Both the position numbers and the translations under genes were made by a program. 64,000 nucleotides of DNA from Salinispira pacifica (GTDB lineage Bacteria > Spirochaetota > Spirochaetia > DSM-27196 > Salinispiraceae). Positions 6,125 to 31,529 of the stretch are shown here, one piece after another. How positions within the stretch are numbered: the first letter of the stretch is position 1; each line of letters opens with the position of its first letter. The stretch is taken from the NCBI RefSeq assembly GCF_000507245.1, contig NC_023035.1, forward strand, positions 1,837,501 through 1,901,500, read 5' to 3'. The notes beneath the pieces were generated by a model. The model had not been told where the DNA came from, ran no database searches, and saw only the letters and a list, made by a program, of their open reading frames with translations.

Positions 6125-6133
6125 CGAAAAAAG

Positions 6134-6205
<72 letters not shown>

Positions 6206-22641: not shown

Positions 22642-24050
22642 TCAGGTATCTTCCTTCAGAGGCAGGATTCTCTCCCTGTAGTAGTTCGATGCCAGAGTAA
22701 GCAGTTTCTTCCGGGAATTCATGGATGGGTCATCAAGTACCGCCTCCAGTAAAAACAGCAAAACCTTTTTCATCTCTCTGGATTTCGGGATTCCCGCATC
22801 TTCGTGAAGTATATTCCCGTTGATGTCCAGATCACCGATGGTAAGGGCGGACTGTTGCTGCAGCAGCCTTCCCACTCTGTCCCGCAGTTCATTCAGCCAG
22901 GGTATTACCGGAGCCTGAAGGGGATTCCCGTTCTGTTGCTGGTCATGGAAGGGACCCGTTTTGCCGGCAATATCGGAATTTTTCAAATCAAGCAGATCAA
23001 GAATATCATCACGGCCAACCCGGCTGACAAAACGTCTCACGGCTTTATCTGAATCCTTCCCGCGGACCTGAAACATGTGATGCATTATCAGGTGATGCAC
23101 CTTCTTTTCGAATGCTCTGGGGTATTTCAGTCTGTTGCAGATTTCGCTGGCCATCTGTGCAGAGTGCTTCTCATGAGCAGGATAGCTGATTTCGCCGTCG
23201 GCTGATTCACTGCGGGTTTCCGTCTTTCCGATATCGTGGAGGAGGGCAGCAAGGCGAACTTCAAGGCTGTGGAGGGGGGCATAATCGCAGCAGCAGAGCA
23301 GGTGGTCAAAAAGATCCCGGTTTTCGGGCATGCTGTCCTGGGAAAATCCCCGGCAGCTGTGCAGTTCCGGGAGAAAGAGTTGAAGTACTCCCAGATCATC
23401 GGCAATCGCCAGTCCCCTGCTGGGTCTTGGTGAAAAGAGGATTTTGTTGAACTCGTCCCGGATCCGTTCCACAGAAACCTGCTTCATGAATTCAAGGCGG
23501 GAACGCATCCCTCATAGGTCACCTGTTCAATGCTGAAGTTCAACCCGGAGGCGAAACGAATTCCGCGAATTATCCGCAAGCCGTCTTCAGAAAATCTGAG
23601 AAGAGGATCACCCACGGTTCTGATAATCCCGCTTTTCAGGTCCTTTTTCCCCCCGTGGGGGTCCAGAAGCTGATGGGTCTGGAGGTTATAGGCCATGGCA
23701 TTGATGGTAAAATCTCTTCGTTTCAGATCCTCATGGATATTTCCCGTATATTCCACACTGTCAGGTCTTCGGGCGTCGCTGTAGCTTCCGTCAATACGGT
23801 ATGTTGTTACTTCATAGCTCTCACCCTTGAAACGAATGGTTACCGTTCCATGCTGAATTCCTGTGGGAATTACATGATGAAACAATTTCATGATTTCCTG
23901 GGGCTGAGCGTCGCTGGCAAGATCCCAATCCATGGGCGGACGGCCGAGAACAATATTTCTTACTGCTCCGCCCACCAGATATAACTCATGCCCTGCGGCC
24001 CGGAATATCCGTTCAATGCTGTATAGATTTTTCGGTATAAACGTTTTCAC
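22642..24050 (-). pseudogene. cca: CCA-adding tRNA nucleotidyltransferase, broken by a frameshift near 23506-23512
   Basis: Two overlapping frames together make one class II CCA-adding enzyme. The upstream frame (stop at 23484) holds the nucleotidyltransferase head: YLVGGAVRNIVLG, the DWDLASDA metal site, RRDFTINAMAYN and the GLRIIRGIRFASGLNF helix. Its last residues (TYEG, then unrelated) lose the family pattern exactly where the other frame begins MRSRLEFMKQVSVERIRDE, then continues to an HD domain (LLHDIGKTE, about 23200) and C-terminus at 22642. Adding one base in GAGGGATG restores one frame. The GTG at 24050 is the likely start since the upstream ATG (24083) lies in the flaB terminator. 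Real mutation, recoding or base-call error are all possible. Confidence 0.8.
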
Positions 24051-24065
24051 GATAGGAATAATACA

Positions 24066-24102
24066 TAAAAAAACCGGTCCCATAAAGCCGGGGACCGGTT
24101 TT
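24066..24102 (-). terminator. Strong rho-independent terminator of flaB
   Basis: On the complement AAAACCGGTCCC, a ten-base loop, GGGACCGGTTTTTTT. It begins about 22 bases after the flaB stop and ends before the cca start. Confidence 0.95.
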
Positions 24103-31308: not shown

Positions 31309-31382
31309 GCCGACTTAGCTCAGCTGGCCAGAGCACGTGACTTGTAATCTCGGGGTCGTCGGTTCGAATCCGACAGTCGGCT
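31309..31382 (+). tRNA. tRNA-Thr (anticodon UGU)
   Basis: 7-bp acceptor (GCCGACT/AGTCGGC), D-arm GCTC...GAGC, anticodon loop CTTGTAA (TGT), T-arm GTCGG-TTCGAAT-CCGAC. The anticodon stem has one T-T mismatch. Discriminator T; no encoded CCA (next bases GAA). Confidence 0.95.
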
Positions 31383-31447: not shown

Positions 31448-31529
31448 GGGGAGTTTCCCGAGCGGTCAAAGGGGGCAGACTGTAAATCTGTTGGCTCAGC
31501 CTTCGCAGGTTCGAATCCTGCACTCCCCA
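31448..31529 (+). tRNA. tRNA-Tyr (anticodon GUA)
   Basis: Class II tRNA: acceptor GGGGAGT/ACTCCCC, D-arm CCGAGCGG, anticodon GTA in CTGTAAA, long variable arm (GGCTCAGCC), T-arm GCAGG-TTCGAAT-CCTGC, discriminator A. No encoded CCA (next bases AAA). Confidence 0.96.

Follow-up and report, generated by a model that had tools for sequence, protein, structure and literature searches.

In the deposited sequence of Salinispira pacifica the cca gene does not form a single continuous frame and is instead split over two minus-strand frames, at positions 22642-24050 of the window, the 64,000-nucleotide stretch of DNA analysed here. This raises the question of whether the organism makes a CCA-adding enzyme from a divided gene, or whether the division lies in the deposited sequence itself.

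The two halves of cca and their seam

The head half (23484-24050, minus strand) carries the PolyA_pol nucleotidyltransferase domain with its motifs through EDGLR. Its open reading frame extends from 24083 to 23484 and is open up to an ATG at 24083, and the GTG at 24050 is the more likely start. The tail half (22642-23508, minus strand) carries the RNA-binding neck and body (VSVERIRDE), an HD domain and a C-terminal tRNA_NucTran2_2 domain. Both the frames and the domains bear out the preliminary description of this DNA, which had placed head and tail in two frames overlapping at 23484-23508. In a domain profile search PolyA_pol was complete in the head (PF01743, E 1e-40), and PolyA_pol_RNAbd (PF12627, E 3e-12), HD and tRNA_NucTran2_2 were all found in the tail, so that a PolyA_pol head is followed by an RNA-binding neck domain, as in class II enzymes. 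The head scored 227 bits against the CCA nucleotidyltransferase profile PRK13299 and 148 against pcnB, and the best profile for the tail was TIGR02692 CCA; either half alone falls below the cut-off. By its predicted activity, read from these domains, the locus encodes a bacterial class II CCA-adding tRNA nucleotidyltransferase of the ordinary kind.

A single added base at GAGGGATG (23506-23513) fuses the two frames with no residue lost. In the PRK13299 alignment the head reaches profile position 179 and the tail resumes at 181. Similarly, in an alignment with a relative of the same family (L031), the head (residues 4-192) covers residues 13-201 of the relative and the tail (residues 1-281) covers 202-466. 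Because the tail continues the head exactly in this alignment, one base is absent from cca, leaving a -1 frame. The alignments thus uphold the earlier claim that one extra base joins the halves, and they show one base to be missing relative to the relatives. The missing base is confined to 28 nt (23487-23514, from TGAGGGATG to the stop of the head) by a tail-frame TGA in TATGAGGG. Within the junction TATGAGGGATG (23506-23516, minus strand) the only G run is GGG at 23509-23511, which is the likeliest site of the missing base; the seam contains no long G/C homopolymer.

Relatives from the same order have a cca-type gene with an open frame of about 450-660 codons, cut short only by contig ends, and the aligned relatives cross the position of the seam without interruption. 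No split or shifted cca was found among these sampled relatives, which include no second genome of the genus. A conserved programmed shift or a conserved split enzyme is therefore unsupported. A search of the contig collection for loci related to the broken gene confirmed none, and a literature search on frameshifted CCA enzymes gave nothing relevant among the hits listed.

Requirement for a CCA-adding enzyme

The three tRNA genes of the window, tRNA-Gly(UCC) (6133-6205, minus strand), tRNA-Thr(UGU) (31309-31382, plus strand) and tRNA-Tyr(GUA) (31448-31529, plus strand), do not encode CCA, as had been reported. The same holds genome-wide, where 0 of the 42 tRNA genes found encode it, and the possibility that tRNAs outside the window supply their own CCA was rejected on this count. 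Only two genes in the genome contain a PolyA_pol domain, as in most relatives sampled: cca and an unbroken paralogue, the poly(A) polymerase PcnB, which scores above the curated PcnB cut-off. A second cca-like gene, for which the preliminary description had advised looking, or a separate complete CCA enzyme, which it had named as a refutation, was rejected as well, since PcnB was the only candidate and a search of the genome for an archaeal-type CCA enzyme found none. A working CCA enzyme is thus needed and must come from the cca locus, which strengthens the earlier expectation that the activity is essential.

One-base breaks elsewhere in the genome

The scan covered 859 kb (23%) of the genome, namely the window, thirty-nine stretches of 20 kb and one of 15 kb, and looked for coding potential that moves between frames without a proper gene start. 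In this sample, which includes the window itself, chosen for its cca break, 13 probable one-base breaks were kept, about half of them resting mainly on coding potential. All are of the deletion type (0/13 insertions). Other top-ranking rows of the scan lacked supporting domains and were rejected as probable shadow frames, or were repeated elements. Two repeated elements (L094:15333-18542 and L088:16098-16858) have -1 frames that overlap where an AAAAAG stretch lies, and resemble the programmed frameshifting of IS3-type transposases.

Domains support the breaks in cca, gatA, carB, zwf, sbcC and femAB. One base is missing at a G run in carB (L066:10624-14009; profile seam 178/178), gatA (L068:4188-5671; 140/136), zwf (L076:6790-8291; 294/292) and sbcC (L076:3737-6693), where one family spans the break with a gap (632/669). 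femAB (L095:1543-2945) is broken at TATGCGGGCTG, again with one family across the break and a gap (221/302). Support is less firm for breaks in a ROK regulator and in a cyclic-nucleotide-binding/TPR protein, and for the break in L088 it covers the downstream part only. A fourteenth break, found separately from the scan, splits mutS between two frames and lies at a G6 run (568/555; L139, G000:C1:1931500-1936500; also L131 and L132). No other copy above the family cut-off was found for gatA or carB. Alongside the broken gatA the genome holds a full-length GlnRS (L129, G000:C1:766884-768482), and GatCAB may be dispensable for Gln-tRNA; because glnS is present, the gatA break was dropped as a proof of essentiality. 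One gene of unknown family (L070:5052-6810) apparently has two one-base breaks, at a C6 and a G6 run.

With each break assigned to a run by eye from the frames, and the L088 break, which could not be assigned, left out of the twelve counted, G/C runs of length 7 carried 1 event in 48 runs, those of length 6 carried 7 in 265, those of length 5 carried 2 in 1303 and those of length 3 carried 2 in 19213. Most breaks therefore lie at G/C runs of 5-7, and their frequency climbs with run length; A/T runs of 5 or more had none (0/2948). Many breaks in the same direction as that in cca, of the kind expected from residual PacBio consensus indels, are thus present at G/C runs elsewhere in this assembly.

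The only other break at a run as short as the GGG of cca is that in femAB, and the two seams, TATGCGGGCTG and TATGAGGGATG, have nearly the same context. Their common pattern, TATGNGGGNTG, occurs at 19 sites in the genome and coincides with a shift at those two only. Three same-phase sites are read straight through, and the site in L105 is a normal gene junction. We rejected the pattern as a shift signal or an error hot spot and, since its other copies are read through, treat the likeness of the two seams as chance.

Discussion

It is highly probable that the cca frameshift is a residual one-base deletion in the PacBio/HGAP consensus and that the gene is intact in the organism. Breaks that are deletions only, confined to G/C runs, dependent on run length and scattered over unrelated genes point to consensus error, not to selection or programmed recoding. 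Because cca must work, an error is also the simplest account of this locus. The frameshift would follow if a GGGG had been called as GGG, or from some comparable slip in TATGAGGGATG. The weak point lies in the run itself, since GGG is at the weak end of the run-length spectrum, with about 1 event in 10,000 runs. Residual PacBio consensus indels are not always in long runs, and the short run at cca weakens the error reading without overturning it. For the S. pacifica L21-RPul-D2T genome (CP006939.1; 3,782,798 bp, one contig), PacBio RSII reads at 365x were assembled with HGAP, and Illumina and 454 reads were then mapped onto the assembly to check coverage and SNPs (PMC4511686). With such high coverage and mapped short reads an error at cca is not inevitable, and we infer it for this particular break from the pattern found across the genome.

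That the deletion is real, with the only CCA enzyme of S. pacifica produced either by non-canonical -1 slippage or as two halves translated separately, is improbable. In the slippage version some full-length enzyme would be made by ribosomal or transcriptional slipping, the ribosomal form having the Gly codon GGA re-pair on GGG before a Cys codon. A -1 slip at this codon would yield the full-length protein with no residue lost, the gene is needed given the 0/42 tRNA genes with CCA, and the femAB break has a comparable context (TAT GCG GGC TGT). However, the site lacks an X XXY YYZ slippery heptamer, the downstream RNA is less stably folded than shuffled versions of it (z +1.5), the run is only three G, the gene is unbroken in relatives and other same-phase TATGNGGGNTG sites are read through, which together make slippage decidedly unlikely. 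As for two proteins, the seam coincides exactly with an ATG (23508), where the tail could restart by termination-reinitiation and the coupled halves assemble into one enzyme, and both halves retain coding potential and domains. Yet an ATG there can be chance, no well-spaced ribosome-binding site precedes it in the sequence, the break separates the head motifs from VSVERIRDE within the neck, and no sampled relative is split; we find this version scarcely credible.

A real mutation might also have arisen if the sequenced culture were a mismatch-repair-defective mutator accumulating homopolymer deletions, that in cca included. The mutS frame is indeed broken at a G6 run and many breaks sit in G/C runs, but a mutator would be expected to affect A/T runs and to make insertions as well, neither of which was seen; mutL is intact, and loss of cca should be lethal. 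We regard this explanation as very unlikely, while the mutS break may itself be either an assembly error or the mark of a true mutator strain. Among the three options set out in the preliminary description, a base-call error is thus favoured and a programmed shift and half-proteins are disfavoured, in view of the intact relatives, the missing heptamer and fold, and the many one-base deletions.

If the break were real, it would be remarkable that an indispensable tRNA-maturation enzyme relied on recoding or split halves. Most likely the frameshift is an assembly artefact and not new biology. Extrapolated from 13 breaks in 23% of the genome, the reference sequence of S. pacifica would contain an estimated 50-60 one-base breaks, and the genes that look like pseudogenes in it, including mutS, carB and gatA, are therefore unfit for biological inference before re-polishing.

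As in programmed -1 frameshifting of dnaX and IS3-type transposases, cca has two overlapping frames in a -1 relation, but its seam has no slippery heptamer and no structure and is not conserved. In another PacBio HGAP assembly, at 262x and a QV over 50, short reads still fixed 205 indels, nearly all within G or C homopolymers (PMC4832174). The S. pacifica breaks are likewise one-base deletions in G/C runs, length-dependent and in unrelated genes, whereas the cca site differs in having a run of three G only. Finally, compared with bacterial class II CCA tRNA nucleotidyltransferases (PRK13299/NF009814; PolyA_pol, PolyA_pol_RNAbd and HD), the predicted protein has the same domains, order, motifs and positions of its parts; it is continuous with its relatives over the seam and differs by one base absent from the deposited S. 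pacifica sequence.
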